53,589 bases of DNA from an uncultured Planctomycetia bacterium (GTDB lineage Bacteria; Planctomycetota; Phycisphaerae; FEN-1346; JAACEH01), in NCBI GenBank assembly GCA_903929765.1, contig CAIYVX010000089.1, positions 1-53,589 of the forward strand. Reading direction: 5' to 3'. Below the pieces are notes generated by a model. The model saw nothing but the letters and a program-made list of their open reading frames with translations, made no database searches and was not told the DNA's origin. Made by a program: the position numbers and the translations under genes. Of the stretch, positions 3,190 to 46,292 are shown in pieces. Each line of letters starts with the position of its first letter. Position 1 is the stretch's first letter.

Positions 3190-3254
3190 GGTGCGTGTTT
3201 ACACGCACCATCATTCTACGGTGGGTGGCATGGTTCACGCTTGCGTGGCCATGC
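3186..3254 (+). repeat. GTAG-headed REP-like hairpin plus GGGTGGCATGG hairpin between scpB and csp
   Basis: 3186-3211 is GTAGGGTGCGTG-TTTA-CACGCACC, whose GTAG overlaps the scpB stop codon. 3223-3254 begins GGGTGGCATGG and folds through the arms CCACGC/GCGTGG. They lie between two convergent genes. Confidence 0.8.
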
Positions 3255-4609: not shown

Positions 4610-7372
4610 TCACCGCCGCCCGCCAAAAAACTCCAGCGCCGCTCCGGCCGCCTCGCCCGTCTCGTCGGCAAACTCAATTCGCAAATGCCCGACCCCCGCC
4701 GCCACCAGCGCCGGCAACCGACCCTCCGACGATTGTGCCCGCGCACTCAGTACCGTATTGCGGCACCCCACGTCCGTCACCACCGGATGCTCCTGTCCGT
4801 TCCGGTCGCGCAGCCGTAGCGTTTGACCCCGACACGGACCGCTGCCCTGCCGCCCCCGACATCCGCCCGGTTTTTGTGCCGCAAACAAGCAATGTTCCAA
4901 GTGGAACATCGCCGCGTGCTGGTAAACCACCGCTTCCACCCGCCCCGCCGGCACCCGCGCCAGCAGCAATTCCAACTCCGCCCACGCCAGGTCCGCGCTC
5001 GGCGTCACCCGCTCAAGCCCCGCCTCCAGCAGCAGCCCAGCCGTCAATTCATTCGCCGCATTGAGCGAAAAATCGCCCACCAATTCCAATTTTTCCGCCC
5101 GCTCCCGGAAAAATTCCAACGTTCCCAGGTTCCGCACCAGCACCGCGTCCGGCCGACACTCCAACAACGCCGCCAGCAACCCTTCCTCGCCCGGCTTCAA
5201 AATCCGCGGCCCCGCCAAACCAACCTTCACCCCCGCCCCTCGCACCTTCTCCACCCCCGCCCGCACCGCCTCCAAATTTCCAAAATCCAGATACACCAGC
5301 CCCGGTCGCTGCGCCAGCGCCGCCGCCAACTGCTCCTCCGTTCGCACCAAAACCGAAAGTTGTGTCTTTTCAGCACTTTCGGGTTCTGGGGTGCCACACC
5401 TTGGCCCCCGGTCGTTCGGGGGCAAGGTGTGAGGAATATCGCACACCTTGCCCGGCGATACAGCCCGCCGGGTCAAAGTGTGGCACCCGGATTCTCCCGA
5501 CATCTCACTTCTCAAATGTTCCAGTGCCCCCGCATCCTTAATCTCGTGCCGCCCCCGCGCCTCCCGCGCCGCCACCAACTTCTCCGCCGCCCTTCGCCGC
5601 AGATCGTTCAGCACGCTCTTGGGCGCCATCACCGCCTCGGCCCGCCCCGTGCCCTCCGCCCCGCTCAACTTCACCCCGCCCAGCGTAAACGGCGTGTCGC
5701 CCAGCCGTCCGAACTGCTCCCACACCAACGCCTCGTCCAGTGGATGCTGCCGCGCCAACTCCACCGCCGCCTCCGACTCCACCGTCGCCTCGTTCCCCAA
5801 CTCATCCCGCATCGTCACCACCAGCGGTCGCCCCGCCGCCGCCCGAATCTCCACCTCCACCAGCGCCGGCCGCCGCACCACGTCCCGCGACCACGTCGCC
5901 GCCAGCCGTCGCCGCAACTCCGGATCGTCCGTCTTCCACACCGCCGCCCCGACCGCGATCTTCGCCAACACCAGGTCGTCCCGCCCAAAAGTCAACTCCA
6001 CCCGCGTCCCCCGATGCGCCGGCGGCCGCATCCGCCCCGCCGCCCCCGCCGGGCCCCGCCCTTTCACCACCACCGGCGGCGGCGCGTCTCGGAATGGCTC
6101 GACCGAATAAATCCGCCCGCCCTGCTCTGCCGCCTCATCCGCCCCCGCCGTCGCAAACACCACCCCGTCCCCCGGCTTCACCGCTCCCGCCGCCCGGTCC
6201 AACTCCACCACCACCCCGCGTCGCGAAACCGCCGTCACCGTCCCGACGCGCACCCCGCTTTTCCCCGGCGCCCGCCCGTCAACCAACTCCTCGCCCGTGG
6301 CCCCGCCCAGAAATCCGTGCGTAAACCCGCGCGAAAAACTCTGTTCCAGATCGCGCCGCTGCTCGTCCGTCAACCGGAACGGCCGCCCCGCCTCGGCCGC
6401 ATCCAGCGCCGCCCGATAAACCCCCGTCGCCGCCGCCACATAATAAGCGTCCTTCTGCCGCCCTTCGATCTTGTACCCCGTCACCCCCGCCGCCGCCATT
6501 TCCCCCACCAGATCCCACGCCCCCAGATCGCGCGGACTCAGCGGAAACGGTTTTGCTCCACCCTTGTTTTCCTGCCCCTCCACCACCACCTCATACGGCA
6601 ACCGGCAGGCCTGCGCGCACAACCCCCGGTTCGCGCTCCGCTCAAAGAGCAACCCGCTCGCCAGACATTGCCCGCTATAGGAAATGCACAGCGCCCCATG
6701 CACAAACGCTTCCAACTCAACCGGGACATTTGTATGAACCGAGGGTGCCACACTTTGTCCCGGCGGTCGTTTGCCGGGCAAAGTGTGTTCTTCTTTGGTT
6801 GCCTTCGACACCGCCCGAATATCTTCCAGCGACAACTCCCGCGCCAGAATCACCCGCGTCACGCCCATCTGCCGCACAAACTCAATCCCGCGCGGCTCCG
6901 TCAGCGTCATCTGCGTCGAAGCGTGAATCGGCAGCCCCGGCACGAGCCGCGCGACGAGCCGCGCCAGGCCCAGATCCTGCACGATCACCGCGTCCGCCCC
7001 CGCCCGGGCAATCGCCGCCACATATTCCGCCGCCCGCTCCAACTCGCTCGGAAAAATCAGCGTGTTGAACGCGACATAAGCCTTGACGTTATGCCGATGC
7101 AGCCAGGCCACGGTCTCCGGCAATTCTTCCAGCGTGAAATTCTCCGCCCGCCGCCGCGCGTTGAACTCCGGCAGCCCGAAGTACACGGCATCCGCCCCAT
7201 TGGCCACCGCCGCCCGCAATGCCTCCCCATCCCCCGCCGGCGCCAGCAACTCCAGCCGCCGCCCCGCCGTGTAGGGTGCGTGCTTGCACGCACCATCTTG
7301 CTTTGCCTTAGACGGGTAGGTCGGGTCAACAGACCCGACATTTCCTTTTCTTTTGTCATTGTTTTTGGTCAT
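4610..7372 (-). CDS. U32-family peptidase/RlhA-like protein with several repeat-encoded insertions
   Basis: The protein matches the U32 'collagenase-like' family, whose E. coli relatives include RlhA (23S rRNA C2501 hydroxylation) and UbiU/UbiV-type Fe-S proteins. Visible marks are LELLAPAGD near residue 40, the U32 signature ELEAFVHGALCISYSGQC, and Cys229, 236, 252 and 256, the usual Fe-S ligands. A DUF3656-like C-terminal half and a U32-like tail (LVYLDFGN, VVYQHAAMFHLEHCLFA) follow. At 920 residues it is longer than relatives, partly because repeats are translated: residues about 11-19 and 27-34 (two GTAG hairpins), 194-212 (one CACACTTTG hairpin) and 628-662 (two). One insert lies just before the signature motif. 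A TATAAT eight bases upstream of the ATG suggests a near-leaderless message, but no good -35 was seen. The TSUP gene ends 40 bases upstream. The rRNA role is inference. Confidence 0.85.
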   Translation of the reverse strand: MTKNNDKRKGNVGSVDPTYPSKAKQDGACKHAPYTAGRRLELLAPAGDGEALRAAVANGADAVYFGLPEFNARRRAENFTLEELPETVAWLHRHNVKAYVAFNTLIFPSELERAAEYVAAIARAGADAVIVQDLGLARLVARLVPGLPIHASTQMTLTEPRGIEFVRQMGVTRVILARELSLEDIRAVSKATKEEHTLPGKRPPGQSVAPSVHTNVPVELEAFVHGALCISYSGQCLASGLLFERSANRGLCAQACRLPYEVVVEGQENKGGAKPFPLSPRDLGAWDLVGEMAAAGVTGYKIEGRQKDAYYVAAATGVYRAALDAAEAGRPFRLTDEQRRDLEQSFSRGFTHGFLGGATGEELVDGRAPGKSGVRVGTVTAVSRRGVVVELDRAAGAVKPGDGVVFATAGADEAAEQGGRIYSVEPFRDAPPPVVVKGRGPAGAAGRMRPPAHRGTRVELTFGRDDLVLAKIAVGAAVWKTDDPELRRRLAATWSRDVVRRPALVEVEIRAAAGRPLVVTMRDELGNEATVESEAAVELARQHPLDEALVWEQFGRLGDTPFTLGGVKLSGAEGTGRAEAVMAPKSVLNDLRRRAAEKLVAAREARGRHEIKDAGALEHLRSEMSGESGCHTLTRRAVSPGKVCDIPHTLPPNDRGPRCGTPEPESAEKTQLSVLVRTEEQLAAALAQRPGLVYLDFGNLEAVRAGVEKVRGAGVKVGLAGPRILKPGEEGLLAALLECRPDAVLVRNLGTLEFFRERAEKLELVGDFSLNAANELTAGLLLEAGLERVTPSADLAWAELELLLARVPAGRVEAVVYQHAAMFHLEHCLFAAQKPGGCRGRQGSGPCRGQTLRLRDRNGQEHPVVTDVGCRNTVLSARAQSSEGRLPALVAAGVGHLRIEFADETGEAAGAALEFFGGRR
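5389..5488 (-). repeat. Two head-to-head CACACTTTG hairpins inside the U32 gene
   Basis: 5389-5431 (+ orientation) starts GGGTGCCACACC and folds through CCCCCG/CGGGGG. 5441-5488 is an inverted copy ending GGCACCC. Together they add about 34 residues without breaking the frame. Confidence 0.85.
6743..6788 (+). repeat. CACACTTTG hairpin inside the U32 gene
   Basis: The element starts GGGTGCCACACTTTG and closes with CCGGGCAAAGTGTG. On the coding strand it is translated as about 16 residues just before the U32 signature. Confidence 0.85.
7271..7341 (+). repeat. Two GTAG-headed REP-like hairpins in the 5' end of the U32 gene
   Basis: 7271-7294 is GTAGGGTGCGTG-CTTG-CACGCACC-like, and 7316-7341 starts GTAGGTCGGGTC and ends GACCCGACAT. 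They encode part of the N-terminal 40 residues, which have no counterpart in the family. Confidence 0.8.
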
Positions 7373-8285: not shown

Positions 8286-8318
8286 GGGTGGCATGGTCCA
8301 CGCTTGCGTGGCCATGCG
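8286..8318 (+). repeat. GGGTGGCATGG hairpin at the 5' edge of the TSUP gene
   Basis: The element begins GGGTGGCATGG and folds through CCACGC/GCGTGG. It is nearly identical to copies at 3223, 21368 and 40833. It provides an in-frame ATG for a longer, probably unused, start of the TSUP gene. Confidence 0.8.
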
Positions 8319-12258: not shown

Positions 12259-12306
12259 GGGTGCCACACTTTGGCCCAGCGGGCTGTTTCGCTGGGCAAA
12301 GTGTGT
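12259..12306 (+). repeat. CACACTTTG hairpin after the YdjY-like gene
   Basis: The element starts GGGTGCCACACTTTG and closes with CTGGGCAAAGTGTG. It may also end transcription of the gene upstream, though no T-run follows. Confidence 0.8.
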
Positions 12307-16735: not shown

Positions 16736-16809
16736 GTAGGGGCGACATATATGTCGCCCTTCTTGCTGTTTCTGCCGGGTGCCACGGTTCTGCTTGCAGA
16801 ACCGTGCTC
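16736..16809 (+). repeat. GTAG-headed hairpin and GGGTGCCACGG hairpin
   Basis: 16736-16759 is GTAGGGGCGACAT-ATGTCGCCC, an almost perfect palindrome. 16777-16809 starts GGGTGCCACGGTTCTGC and returns GCAGAACCGTG. They lie at the left edge of the lower-GC block. Confidence 0.8.
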
Positions 16810-21336: not shown

Positions 21337-21436
21337 GTTGGGCCCTGGCCCGACATAATAAAAACTCGGGTGGCATGGACCACGCTTGCGTGGCCATGCG
21401 AAATGGGGTGCCACGGTTCCGCTTGCAGAACCGTAC
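21333..21436 (+). repeat. Three palindromic elements in series
   Basis: 21333-21356 is GTAGGTTGGGCC-CT-GGCCCGACAT, supplying the preceding gene's stop codon. 21368-21400 is a GGGTGGCATGG hairpin with CCACGC/GCGTGG arms. 21406-21436 starts GGGTGCCACGGTTCCGC and returns GCAGAACCGT. They separate two convergent genes. Confidence 0.85.
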
Positions 21437-28043: not shown

Positions 28044-28142
28044 GGGTGGCATGGCGGCGTTGTCTGCCGCCATGTTTCGCCCTCGCCCGCCTCCACACCA
28101 AGACCGGGTGGCATGGCGGCCGCCGTCCGCCGCCATGTTTCG
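28044..28142 (+). repeat. Two GGGTGGCATGGCGGC hairpins downstream of the RAYT gene
   Basis: 28044-28081 folds through CATGGCGGC/GCCGCCATG and 28106-28142 through CATGGCGGC/GCCGCCATG with a different loop. Both end GTTTCGCC. They lie in the opposite orientation to the copy upstream of the transposase (28761-28791). Confidence 0.9.
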
Positions 28143-28146
28143 CCAA

Positions 28147-28731
28147 TCACCTCTTCTTCAGCAGCGGCAACGTCCCGCGATCTATCCGTATCGGCTCATC
28201 CACACCCAAATGCCAAGCCCGCCAACTCGACCACGGCCAATCCCCGGGTTTCTCGATCAGCCCGCGCCTCACCGGGTTCTGGTGTATGTACCCGATCTTC
28301 TCGTGAACGTCGGCAATGGATCGCAAATTCCGATCATGCCCGCCGCCGCGCTGCCATACTCGGTAATGCTCGTCGCCATTGGGCTGCCGGTCAAGCATGC
28401 GCGGCAAAAATGAGGGGCTGTTTTTTCTGATCCAGCCCAGCGCCCGGTTCGTAACTGGTTTCTTGATCTGGTAGAGGATCGAACTGATCTTCACGCCCTC
28501 GTGCGGCCAGAGCAGCAAATGAGCGTGTTCGGGCATGATTACGAAGGCCCAGAGATCAAAGGGGCACTTGGTCCGGGCCTGACCAACGGCGTCGAGAAAC
28601 CAGCAGGGCAAATGTTCGCCGGAAAAGAATGGCTGTCCGTCAATACAGGAGAACGTGAGGAAATGAGCATCGCCGGGAAAGTCCCAACGTTCACACAACT
28701 TATGTTTCTCTTCTCGGCCATTGGTTTTCAC
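28147..28731 (-). CDS. REP-associated tyrosine transposase (RAYT, HUH/Y1 family)
   Basis: This is a Y1 single-strand transposase of the IS200-like RAYT group, which cuts REP hairpins. The motifs are visible: FPGDAHFLTFSC at the N-terminus, HAH (His69, His71) in FVIMPEHAHLLLWP as the HUH metal site, and Tyr148 in EKIGYIHQNPVRRGLIEKPGDWPWSS as the nucleophile. I use GTG 28731, since the longer frame runs back through a hairpin. The ribosome-binding site is weak, so the start is uncertain. Inverted GGGTGGCATGGCGGC hairpins flank the gene, as expected of a domesticated REP-RAYT unit. Copies of this hairpin occur at 40873 and 44551, so the enzyme may have spread them; this is inference. Confidence 0.9.
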   Translation of the reverse strand: MKTNGREEKHKLCERWDFPGDAHFLTFSCIDGQPFFSGEHLPCWFLDAVGQARTKCPFDLWAFVIMPEHAHLLLWPHEGVKISSILYQIKKPVTNRALGWIRKNSPSFLPRMLDRQPNGDEHYRVWQRGGGHDRNLRSIADVHEKIGYIHQNPVRRGLIEKPGDWPWSSWRAWHLGVDEPIRIDRGTLPLLKKR

Positions 28732-28760
28732 AGGCGTTGAGTTCTCTGGCGTGCCGACCA

Positions 28761-28791
28761 CATGGCGGCAAACACCGCCGCCATGCCACCC
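28761..28791 (-). repeat. GGGTGGCATGGCGGC hairpin upstream of the RAYT gene
   Basis: On the - strand this is GGGTGGCATGGCGGCGGTG and returns GCCGCCATG. Its orientation is that of the transposase, and opposite to the two copies downstream. Confidence 0.9.
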
Positions 28792-36384: not shown

Positions 36385-37177
36385 CCGTTCGTAGGGGCAG
36401 AGTTTATCTCTGCCCTGCCGTTTCTTCTTCAGTTTCTTCTTCCGTAAGGCGCACCCCTCGTCCCGGCCGCCTCCCGCCCATCCAAATCATCTACGCAAAG
36501 CCGCGAAGCGGCGGAAGTTTTTAGCCGGGGGTGAAACCCCCGGTACGAAACCACACGAATAATATTCTTCTTCTTTTTCTTCTTCTTCACCCCTCCCCCT
36601 TGAGGGGGAGGGTGGCCGCTTTAGCGGCCGGGTGAGGGTGCGCCTGTTTCTCTCATTCCGCGAGTGTCCCTGCCGTTTTTGCCGTTTCTTTCGCCGTTTC
36701 TTTTTCTTTTGAAGCCCCTGGCACTGCCGGGTGACGCCGTTTTTGTTGCTTCTTATGTCGCTTTTTTTGTTGTCAGCCGCGGAGCGGCGATTGATAATAG
36801 CCACGCGGCGCAAGCCCGTGGTTGCCCAAAAAAACAAACGATTCTTTTCTTTTTTTCTTCTCAGCCCCGGAGGGGCGACTGAACCTTTATCGGTTCCCTC
36901 TCTTTCCTGCCACGTACCGCTCACCACCCCAACCCACTTCTTTTTCTTCTTCGCCCTTCAACCAGCTTTTTTCTTCTCTTTTCGCTGGACAACTCCCTTT
37001 TTTTGGCTTACTATACCATTGTCCGTTTAACTCTCGGCCCCCTCCCCGTCCGCCACCCCGCTTCTTGGCCGCTTTTGCTTCTTTTTCTTCTGCGCCTGAA
37101 GCCTGAGGCCTGAAGCCTGAAGTCTGCCGTTATAATTCTTCTCATTCTTCTCATTCCTTTTTTTAGGAGGACGTACC
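36385..37177. other. About 790-base gene-free region packed with different repeats
   Basis: In order: GTAGGGGCAGAG/CTCTGCCC hairpin (36391-36416); CCGCGAAGCGG and CCGGGGGTGAAACCCCCGG hairpins (36499-36554); CACCCCTCCCCC...GGGTGAGGG element (36589-36640); GAAGCCCCTGGCA hairpin (36711-36739); AGCCGCGGAGCGGCG and AGCCCCGGAGGGGCG units (36773-36884); and AAGCCT string (37093-37133). Long T/C tracts fill the spaces. No supported gene; small ORFs here follow repeat sequence. Confidence 0.7.
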
Positions 37178-40832: not shown

Positions 40833-40904
40833 GGGTGGCCTGGTCCACGCTTGCGTGGCCATGCAGAGGAAAGGGTGGCATGGCGGCGTTGTTTGCCGCC
40901 ATGT
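40833..40904 (+). repeat. Two GGGTGGC hairpins between kdsD and kdsC
   Basis: 40833-40864 starts GGGTGGCCTGGTCCACGC and returns GCGTGGCCATGC. 40873-40904 starts GGGTGGCATGGCGGC and returns GCCGCCATG, the form that flanks the RAYT gene. Confidence 0.85.
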
Positions 40905-41641: not shown

Positions 41642-44600
41642 ATGTTCAAAAAAGTCATGATGGTCCTCATCAGCATCCTCGCCATGATCGTCGTGGCCCT
41701 CCTCCTGGCCCGCGTCGGCGGCCTGGACGCCAAGAAGATCCTCAATCTCCTCCCCATCAGCCCCCAGCAGGTCACCGGCACCGGCAACACCTCGCTGCGG
41801 GTGGGCGTGGGCAACCAGGGCCCCGGCGCCGGCCGCTTCGAACTCATCGTCCGCGACAAGACCGGACGCCTCAAAAAAGTCATCCGCGCCGAAATGCACC
41901 CCGAAGCCTCCGGCCGCGCCAACCTCGTCAACCCCGTCATTCTCCTCTACGACGAAAAGGGCCAACAAACTTCCATTGCCGCCCCCAACGGCTTTTTCGA
42001 CAGCGACGGCATTATCGGCGACCTTGACGACATCAAACGCGGCGCCCTCACCGGCGGCGTCACCATTCGCCATAATCACGCCTCGCCCGACGACCCCGCC
42101 GACGACCTCGTCGCCACCATGGACCACATCGACTACGATCAGAAGTCCTCCCTGCTCTCCACCGACGACGCCGTCAAAATCCGCAGCCCCGAAAACGACG
42201 TCGACGCCATCGGCCTGCGCATTTTCCTCGTCCCGGAGAAAGAAAAAAAGAACGCCGCCCCTGAGAATAAGAACACGATCAAAGAAATTCAGTTCCTCAA
42301 GGAAGTCCACATCGTCATGCGCCGCCAGAGCGGCAAGTTTTCCCTCGGCCTGGGAACCGAAACCGGTCCGGCGGCCCCGCCGACGGCTACGGTCCCGGCT
42401 GACACGGCGACGGCCAAAACATCGCCGGCCCCGGCCTCGGCTGCGGTCGCCAAAGCCGCCGGCCCGCAACCGTATAAGTTCACCCTCAAGGGCCACGTCA
42501 AGGCCGTCCAGGAAGGCAGCAGCCTGACCGGCGCCGACGAACTGGTCCTGGTCGTCCGCTCCAAGAGCGGCGCCGGCGGTCTCGGCGGCAGCGACCGCAG
42601 CGGGGCCGTTCGCTCCGACTCCAGACCCGCCGGCGTTCATTCCGCGACCACCCCCCTCCGTGCCCCGCCCGCCGGCAGCCCCGCGACCAAACCGGCCCCG
42701 AAAGCCGCCGGGACGACCATGGATATCGTCTGCGACGGGCCGCTGGTCATCAATCCCCTCACCGACCCCGCAGCTCCGGAAATGAGCCTTGCCGCCAAAG
42801 CCGCCGACGGCCGGGAAGTCGTCCTGGTGAACAACGACCTGCGGACCCGCAGCGCCACGCTCGATTATGACGGCGGCACCGGCGCGGGCCTCCTGACCCG
42901 GACCGAAAAGTCGCCCGTCGATATCGTCCAGGGAGCCACCAAGATCGTCGGCGACAAGGTCCGCTTCAACCGCGCCGCCGGAACGGTCCACGTCGATGGC
43001 CCCGGCCGGCTCGATTCGGTCAGTGGTGCCGGCGGCATGGACCTGGGCGGCCCGGTTTCCACCACCTCCTCCAAGGAACCCTTCGTGGCCATCTGGAAAA
43101 CCGGGATGCAGGCCGGCCTGGGCCAGCGGACGGTCCATCGCGGCGAAGCGAAGCCGGCCGAGCCTGCGAAGACGACCATTCAGTGGGCCAGGTTCGCCGG
43201 CGACGCCGTACTCCGCCAGGGTGCCCAGTCGCTCTCGGGCCAGGAACTCGGCGTGGACCTCTTTGACGCGACGGATGAGGGTAAGCAGGCGATTCGCCGC
43301 GTGACCGGCCAGGGCCAGGTCGCCGCCTCGCAGCCGGGGTCGGGCCAGCAGGCCATGGTCGGCGATCTGGCCTGCGAAAACATGCGTTTGGATTTCGTCC
43401 GCAACGCCGACGGCACCAGCCGCCCGGAAACCCTTTTCGCCAAAGGCAAGGTCGTGGGCACCCAGGCCGACGGCGGCATCGAGGCCGGCGAAATGAAAAT
43501 CATCTTCGCCCCGGACCCCAAAGCCCCGACCAAGAGCAAGGCCGTGGGCCTCGTCGCCGACCACAACGTCCGCGTGCGCCAGAAGGCCATGTACGCCGAG
43601 GCCGAGCACCTGGAGACCGACGAAACCGGCGACAATCTCCTCCTCGTCGGCGCCGAGGCCCCCTACTGGGCCATGGCCCAGCAAGGGCCGAACAAAATTC
43701 GCGGCCCGAAAATCGCCATGTCCAAATCAAAGCAATACGTCGATGTCGCCGGCGCGGGCGACATGGAAATCTCCGTCGACCGCGACATGGAAGGCCGCAA
43801 GCTCAAGGAACCCTCCCCCCTCCACCTCGACTGGAAGCGCCACATGACCTTCGACGGGCCGAAGAACGTCGCCCATTTCAGCGGCGCCGCCCGGACCCGC
43901 ATGCCCACCGCCTCGGTCGACTCCGAAGATTTGTGGGTCTTCTTCACGGCCGCGCCGGCCAAATCCCCCTCTCCCTTGGGAGAGGGTGCCCCGTCAGGGG
44001 CGGGTGAGGGGTTGAGGCCGAGAACCGTCGGCCATGCTGACTCCCCCCCGACCGACCAGATGTTCAAGAACAAATCCTTGAGCCGCCTCGTCGCCCTGGA
44101 AAAGGTGACGGCCCGCAGCATCGATACGCCGCCTGACCCCAAGGACGACCTTGAAGCGGCCACGATCCGCTGCGAGCGGCTCGAATATTCCGCCGACGAC
44201 GCGAAAGCCTACGTTCCTGTGCCGGGGACGCTGGAAATTCTCTCCGTCGGCCGCGACCCGGAGACGACCTCGCCGTTCCAGCGAGCGCCGCACAGCACGG
44301 TCAACGTGGCCTGGAAAAAAGAAATGATTTTCGATCGCGGCAAGACGGCGCTCGGCTACTTCTCCGGCGACGTGGCCTGTGAAATCAAGGATACCGCCGG
44401 AAAGTTTTCCGGCAAGACCGGCTCAAAATCCGCGGCCGCAGGCGGCTCCAGCGGCCTGACCACCCTCTATTGCCAGGACCTGCGCCTCTATTTCCAGAAC
44501 GAACTTGCCGCCCTCGACGCCGCTTCTTCTTCTCACCCCTCTCCCGGGTCGGGTGGCATGGCGGCCGATGTTGGCCGCCATGAATCCAAGACGCCCGATG

Positions 44601-45011: not shown

Positions 45012-45126
45012 GTAGGGCGGTTGCGCCGTTTGCAGCCGCCATAATCAAAGGCTCTTCTTCCGCTCGCCGTTGCCGTCTCCGGGTGCCACACTTTGAAGCC
45101 CCGGCTGTATCGGGGCCAAAGTGTGT
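45012..45126 (+). repeat. GTAG-headed unit and CACACTTTG hairpin after the lptC-like gene
   Basis: 45012-45040 is GTAGGGCGGTTGCGCCG...GCAGCCGCC, followed by the CTCTTCTTCCGCTCGCCG segment also found near 34540 and 46270. 45081-45126 starts GGGTGCCACACTTTG and closes with GGGGCCAAAGTGTG. Confidence 0.8.
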
Positions 45127-46234: not shown

Positions 46235-46292
46235 GTAGGGTGGCTGCTTGCAGCCACGCGGCAATAAAACGCTCTTCTTCCGCTTGCCGCGG
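46235..46292 (+). repeat. GTAG-headed hairpin with CTCTTCTTCCGC tail
   Basis: 46235-46260 is GTAGGGTGGCTGC-TT-GCAGCCACGC; the 30 bases after it match those after the unit at 45012. Confidence 0.8.

Follow-up and report, generated by a model that had tools for sequence, protein, structure and literature searches.

A small gene framed by inverted hairpins in the genome of an uncultured Planctomycetia bacterium raises the question of whether gene and hairpins together form a REPtron, that is, a domesticated transposase of the Y1/HuH kind (RAYT), present in single copy and lying between inverted copies of its own recognised REP. It also raises the question of which of the many similar hairpins scattered around the genome are to be ascribed to this enzyme. 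Both are considered here for the window, the whole 53,589-nucleotide stretch of DNA that was analysed, in the setting of its host genome and of related genomes.

The RAYT gene and its hairpins

The RAYT (TnpA-REP) coding sequence (28147..28731, minus strand) has a GTG start and encodes a protein of 194 amino acids, with an HAH motif at residues 69-71, the W126-Q-R-GGG loop (WQRGGG at 126) and the catalytic Tyr148 within the motif YIHQNP. The sequence-only reading had named His69, His71 and Tyr148 as marks of a RAYT-type gene, and the residue numbering is identical in this coding sequence. The NCBIfam model for REP-associated tyrosine transposases, NF047646, matches the protein at 95.1 bits against a cut-off of 80 (E = 3.4e-27) and also matches 48 of 48 relatives; the Pfam model Y1_Tnp reaches only 17.7 bits, under its cut-off of 23, and so misses it at threshold. 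A PDB sequence search led to 4er8, the E. coli TnpA-REP in complex with a REP hairpin, which is also the top structural match (E = 1.7e-9) of an AlphaFold2 model with a pLDDT of 92. The predicted Y1 fold combines a HuH motif (H69-A-H71) with a single catalytic tyrosine (Y148), and the transposases of IS608 and ISDra2 are among its structural matches too. The gene is present in a single copy, as the sequence-only reading had expected of a RAYT, with the next paralogue just 54% identical, and its GC3 of 0.69 is below the 0.81-0.83 of its neighbours. Plasmid records searched for relatives of the protein returned distant ones only (<30%).

One hairpin lies upstream of the gene and in its orientation (28761..28791, minus strand, head GG-GTGG) and two lie downstream and inverted relative to it, the nearer at 28106..28137 and the second at 28044..28074 (both plus strand), an arrangement that had been described correctly at the outset. 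All three belong to one family, F1, which consists of GGGTGG followed by CATGGCGGC-loop-GCCGCCATG, and in each the foot, GTGG, sits directly 5' of the stem. The three copies fold as DNA hairpins of 10-11 bp at -11.6 to -12.7 kcal/mol, with z-scores against shuffled sequences of -4.3, -5.3 and -2.3. Two dispersed F1 copies also lie in the window, at 40873..40903, directly after a REP of another family (F3), and at 44551..44582 (both plus strand).

In its general plan the unit resembles the E. coli TnpA-REP/REPtron (group 2, subclass 2.2; 4er8; PMC8266576, PMC6006769), with which it shares the HuH/Y1 fold, the position of the gene between inverted REPs, the dispersed extragenic REPs and a four-nucleotide foot at the base of the stem. 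It differs in that the foot is GTGG (GTGC in some of its kin) rather than GTAG, and in that the F1 stem has no internal bulge, unlike E. coli REPs. The window unit is itself an ordinary, if very clean, REPtron. Its head had at first been judged unlike the classical one, with the suggestion of a new specificity, but GGGTGG is GG plus a published foot, since GTGG lies within the GT[AG]G rule given in PMC6006769, and a new head for this unit is rejected.

The flanking REP is dispersed in high copy number and mainly outside genes. The F1 hairpin occurs 73 times (about 75) in the host genome against none for the reversed control, the GTGG foot of the 73 dispersed copies, and partly the preceding GG, being fixed by the search pattern. 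Most of these copies are single hairpins, and 57 of 72 are extragenic against 26% of random positions, an approximate count that rests on a simple codon-usage gene finder. F1 is absent from the 149 other genomes of the class that were searched (seven of the same order and 142 more), of which the nearest to the host belongs to another genus. It had been proposed that copy number should track the RAYT, and that equal hairpin numbers in genomes lacking it would speak against the connection; the F1 counts, 73 here and none in 149 genomes, follow the first expectation, and four further family-specific searches behave alike.

Some F1 copies lie 13-15 nt before a same-orientation REP of family F6, which has a GTGC foot, and others adjoin F3, inverted F7 or GTAG REPs (window 40833-40903; L082, L089, L095, L073). 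The outcome is a mosaic of BIME-like arrays in which the families do not all have the same foot. At two loci (L087, L096) several F1 copies, spaced at about 0.7-1 kb, fall in stretches that the simple gene finder takes to be long open frames and have common tails, AATCCCAGACGCCCGA..CTTCGCTTCTTCACCC; here they are perhaps REPs within a larger tandem repeat.

REP families in the window and the host genome

The motif GGGTGGCATGG, with at most one mismatch, has 13 occurrences in the window, where shuffled sequences give 2.4 +/- 1.4, and all hairpins that carry it had been taken for a single family made by the window enzyme. That view does not hold, because alignment by the head gives GG-GTG[GC] followed by differing stems: hairpins with the GGGTGGCATGG head split into F1, F2, F3 and F4, at least three of these stem families (F1, F2, F3) have the same head, and F2 belongs to another RAYT of the same genome (on contig C33), not to the window RAYT. 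Accordingly, of the six recurrences that had been listed, those at 40873 and 44551 are indeed of the F1 family, but those at 3223, 8286, 21368 and 40833 are of family F3. The F3 hairpin, CATGG(T)CCACGC..GCGTGGCCATG, is like F1 in the head and first stem bases and differs from it in the stem (T/A-CCACGC-TTG-CGTGGCC). Its representatives, all on the plus strand, are a REP with a GG-GTGG head at 3223..3253, a second at 8286..8316, the 29-nt core of which recurs unchanged in the hairpin beside a RAYT of a different Phycisphaerae genome (L125), and F3-like REPs at 21368..21398 and 40833..40863 (GGGTGGCCTGGTCC...).

Feet other than GTGG are present in the window as well, again on the plus strand. 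Family F9, GTGCCACACTTTG..CAAAGTGTG, has the foot GTGC and is represented at 6743..6787, at 12259..12305 and, by an F9-like REP, at 45081..45125; this family flanks a RAYT paralogue of the host (G000:C82:54722). A further REP with a GTGC foot, of family F8 (GTGCCACGGTTCTGC..), lies at 16777..16806. Classical GTAG-foot REPs are found at 45012..45040, of a family that flanks an E. coli-like RAYT paralogue (G000:C22:20889), and at 46235..46255. A separate element of the window, at 36499-36543 on the minus strand, is an Acido-Lenti-1 RNA (RF01687) scoring above the gathering threshold.

Such hairpins are abundant genome-wide: the general form GTGSCAYGG..CCRTG occurs 386 times in the host against three in reversed controls, and the wider form GTGSCAYGS..SCRTG occurs 107-1253 times in each of the order's eight genomes, where the control gives 7-66. 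Multiple REP families in a single genome have also been described for the GTAG super-family REPs of Planctomycetes and Verrucomicrobia, the same phylum group (PMC3733652). No RAYT with matching flanks was found for F3-F8 in the 96%-complete host assembly, and F6 matches the flanks of a RAYT in another genome, G001 (L041). The existence of families without a cognate RAYT indicates that REPs can persist after their RAYT is gone, or be mobilised in trans.

Correspondence between RAYTs and the hairpins that flank them

Four RAYTs of the host genome have flanking REPs, and each has its own type of inverted hairpin: F1, F2, F9 and a GTAG family. The C33 paralogue, 54% identical to the window RAYT, is flanked by F2 (GTGGCATGGTCCGGCG..); the C82 paralogue, 41% identical, is flanked by F9; and the E. 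coli-like C22 paralogue is flanked by GTAGGGCGGTTGCGC.., with a GTAG foot. F2 is present in 59 copies in the host and F9 in 20, against none of either in seven other genomes of the order. The same holds, less sharply, when the starting point is a RAYT of another genome: the hairpin of the G001 RAYT is found 98 times in G001, once in the host genome and in none of six others of the order, and that of the G003 RAYT 119 times in G003 and 10 and 7 times in two other genomes. Thus in five order-wide searches the dispersed family is the one expected from the flanking hairpin, flank and dispersal going together with some leakage. For a sixth family, GTGCCACTGCTC..GAGCAGTG, six genomes have it beside a RAYT, and all six also score as carrying it, compared with three of the 39 remaining genomes (hypergeometric p 1e-5), although these six RAYTs are related, and the genomes therefore not fully independent; one of the three others, G157, has 45 GTGCCACTGCTC REPs though the RAYT sampled from it is flanked by another hairpin.

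The F2 stems, counted by eye from the search listing, have C:G in 50 copies, T:A in nine and a mixed pair in none, covariation which implies that hairpin formation is selected or templated. Many copies of the G003 hairpin occur as inverted pairs with constant spacing, the REPIN form. G001 has composite pairs of another kind (L188-L227, e.g., L199, L207, L213), in which a GTGC-foot REP is followed by an inverted GTAG-foot REP, usually across a 23-nt linker, so that REPs of two RAYT groups are joined; this was seen in 11 of the 36 copies whose flanks were long enough. Several contig ends of G001 (contigs C17, C19, C25, C26, C47, C51, C66, C73 and C82) coincide with the G001 REP family, from which REPs seem to break metagenome assemblies.

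The reading that best accounts for the window unit, and that we hold to be very probably correct, is that it is a REPtron whose RAYT has, over time, dispersed F1. Under this reading an F1 REP on single-stranded DNA would fold into a hairpin, of which the enzyme would recognise the four-base foot (GTGG) together with the stem; it would then cut near the hairpin by means of Tyr148, and repeated mobilisation would have spread F1, mostly as single hairpins, to about 75 mainly intergenic places. Binding, cleavage, mobility and the making of the F1 copies by this particular enzyme are here inferred from the identity of the gene, its inverted flanks, its single copy and the agreement between hairpin number and RAYT.

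The alternative that comes closest is that F1 was dispersed in trans by another RAYT, for example the C33 paralogue, and that the window RAYT stands between REPs by chance. The resemblance of the two enzymes, the GGGTGGCATGG head that the F2 REP has in common with F1 and the families F3-F8 that exist without a cognate RAYT all lend it some plausibility. It is nonetheless unlikely, given that each RAYT is bracketed on both sides by inverted hairpins of the stem type peculiar to it, and that five order-wide searches link the flanking to the dispersed stems. Another alternative would make the F1 hairpins ordinary regulatory or terminator elements of the lineage, unrelated to the transposase. Their stability and mostly intergenic position would suit such a role, but the conserved 5' foot (GG-GTGG) is asymmetric, none of the listed copies has a uridine tract after the stem, the dispersed copies are identical to the RAYT flanks and the family has no copy at all in 149 related genomes, in which other families do occur, all of which makes this a very improbable explanation. 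Slightly less credence still is due to the idea that the gene is an active insertion sequence of the IS200/IS605 type with the hairpins as transposon ends. Such elements do have the same HuH/Y1 fold, as the matches to IS608 and ISDra2 indicate, but multiple near-identical full-length copies, the mark of an insertion sequence, are replaced here by one gene with a paralogue at 54%, the hairpins are inverted rather than arranged as in an insertion sequence and are dispersed alone, the RAYT-specific model NF047646 is matched, and 4er8 is a much better structural match than ISDra2.

The foot of the window RAYT's clade

A scan of the genome collection, with query motifs that favour the window RAYT's own clade, yielded at least 80 relatives, most of them Planctomycetota (Phycisphaerae, Pirellulales and others) and a few from Zixibacteria, Armatimonadota and other groups. 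Among those listed, the closest to the window RAYT are planctomycete, and on this ground the host is taken to be a planctomycete too. A search blind to the foot found a hairpin common to both flanks in 67 of 91 RAYT loci against 37 of 300 (12%) mismatched locus pairs, and nearly all of these shared hairpins line up on a GTG[GC] foot with a C after it. The foot of this clade is GTG[GC], not GTAG: across about 90 related RAYTs GTGC is commoner than GTGG, the labels, some of them assigned by hand from hairpin listings, being 38 GTGC, 25 GTGG, three mixed and three GTAG. The foot is preceded by GG in 78% (GTGG) or 51% (GTGC) of cases, and position -3 is usually a pyrimidine.

The published rule is GT[AG]G, with GTGG in some groups (PMC6006769), and GTGG is the majority foot of the O. 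terrae GTAG-20 REPs, whose super-family is described as degenerate at foot positions 2 and 3 alone, position 4 staying G (PMC3733652); here position 4 is often C. The GTGC feet of paralogues and kin of the window RAYT therefore depart from that rule, and among the papers covered this looks new. RAYTs near subclass 2.2 ('arcs a-c'), described as enriched in GTGG feet, are, like the window clade, marginal to the named subclasses, a likeness drawn from their description, and the main text on them makes no mention of GTGC (PMC6006769). These two papers were the only ones on GTGC feet or planctomycete REPs that a search of the openly accessible main texts yielded.

The foot-reading segment of the E. 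coli enzyme is W94-Q95..E100-H101..R104. The clade instead has the loop W-x-x-GGG-[YFH]-D-R-N (W-Q-x-GGG-[YFH]-D-R-N when set against E. coli), and in an HMM alignment W-Q and D-R are kept, the D-R of its GGGYDRN loop replacing E100-H101, whereas the position of R104 is variable (Arg in 11 of 78). Group 3, or subclass 2.5, of Stenotrophomonas and Marinomonas (PMC8266576) has the same perfect-stem REPs and the same W-Q and D-R near this segment; the GGG loop, the YIHxNP motif, a C-terminal DWxWSS motif and the GTG[GC] foot set the clade apart from it. The protein tree places the three GTAG RAYTs of E. coli type separately (SH-aLRT 100) and needs 12 changes at the fourth foot base (G or C), a number that rises to 20 when the labels are shuffled.

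The upstream flanks were inspected for the pairing that a guide model predicts, GTGG with CC/CA sites and GTGC with GC/GA. In G001, 26 of 33 GTGC copies have the predicted GC at -5/-4, but across species GC is equally common there for GTGC (18%) and GTGG (19%), and F2 has CG instead, so that as a general rule the model is not supported by upstream flanks. In its full form, the proposal is that a planctomycete-centred clade reads GTG[GC] with a glycine loop, that its fourth foot base has changed from G to C or back on a dozen or more occasions and that GTGC enzymes would cut at GC/GA and GTGG enzymes at CC/CA, as naturally recoded guide tetranucleotides; the chances for and against this appear to us evenly balanced.

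Which part of a RAYT recognises the foot, and whether the foot determines the cutting site, has been tested in the literature covered on just three enzymes, each of which has a GTAG foot (PMC8266576). The clade supplies dozens of natural foot switches with the matching hairpins in hand, and GTGG, GTGC and GTAG RAYTs are sometimes side by side in one genome, so that the guide model for transposases acting on single strands can be put to a direct test. A candidate reader of the fourth foot base, offered as a lead only from residue conservation, is the arginine at position 25, near the end of strand beta-1. With only three independent pairs on well-supported branches, it tracks that base, being present in 34 of 38 GTGC against 9 of 24 GTGG enzymes (p = 3e-5 over 554 tests).
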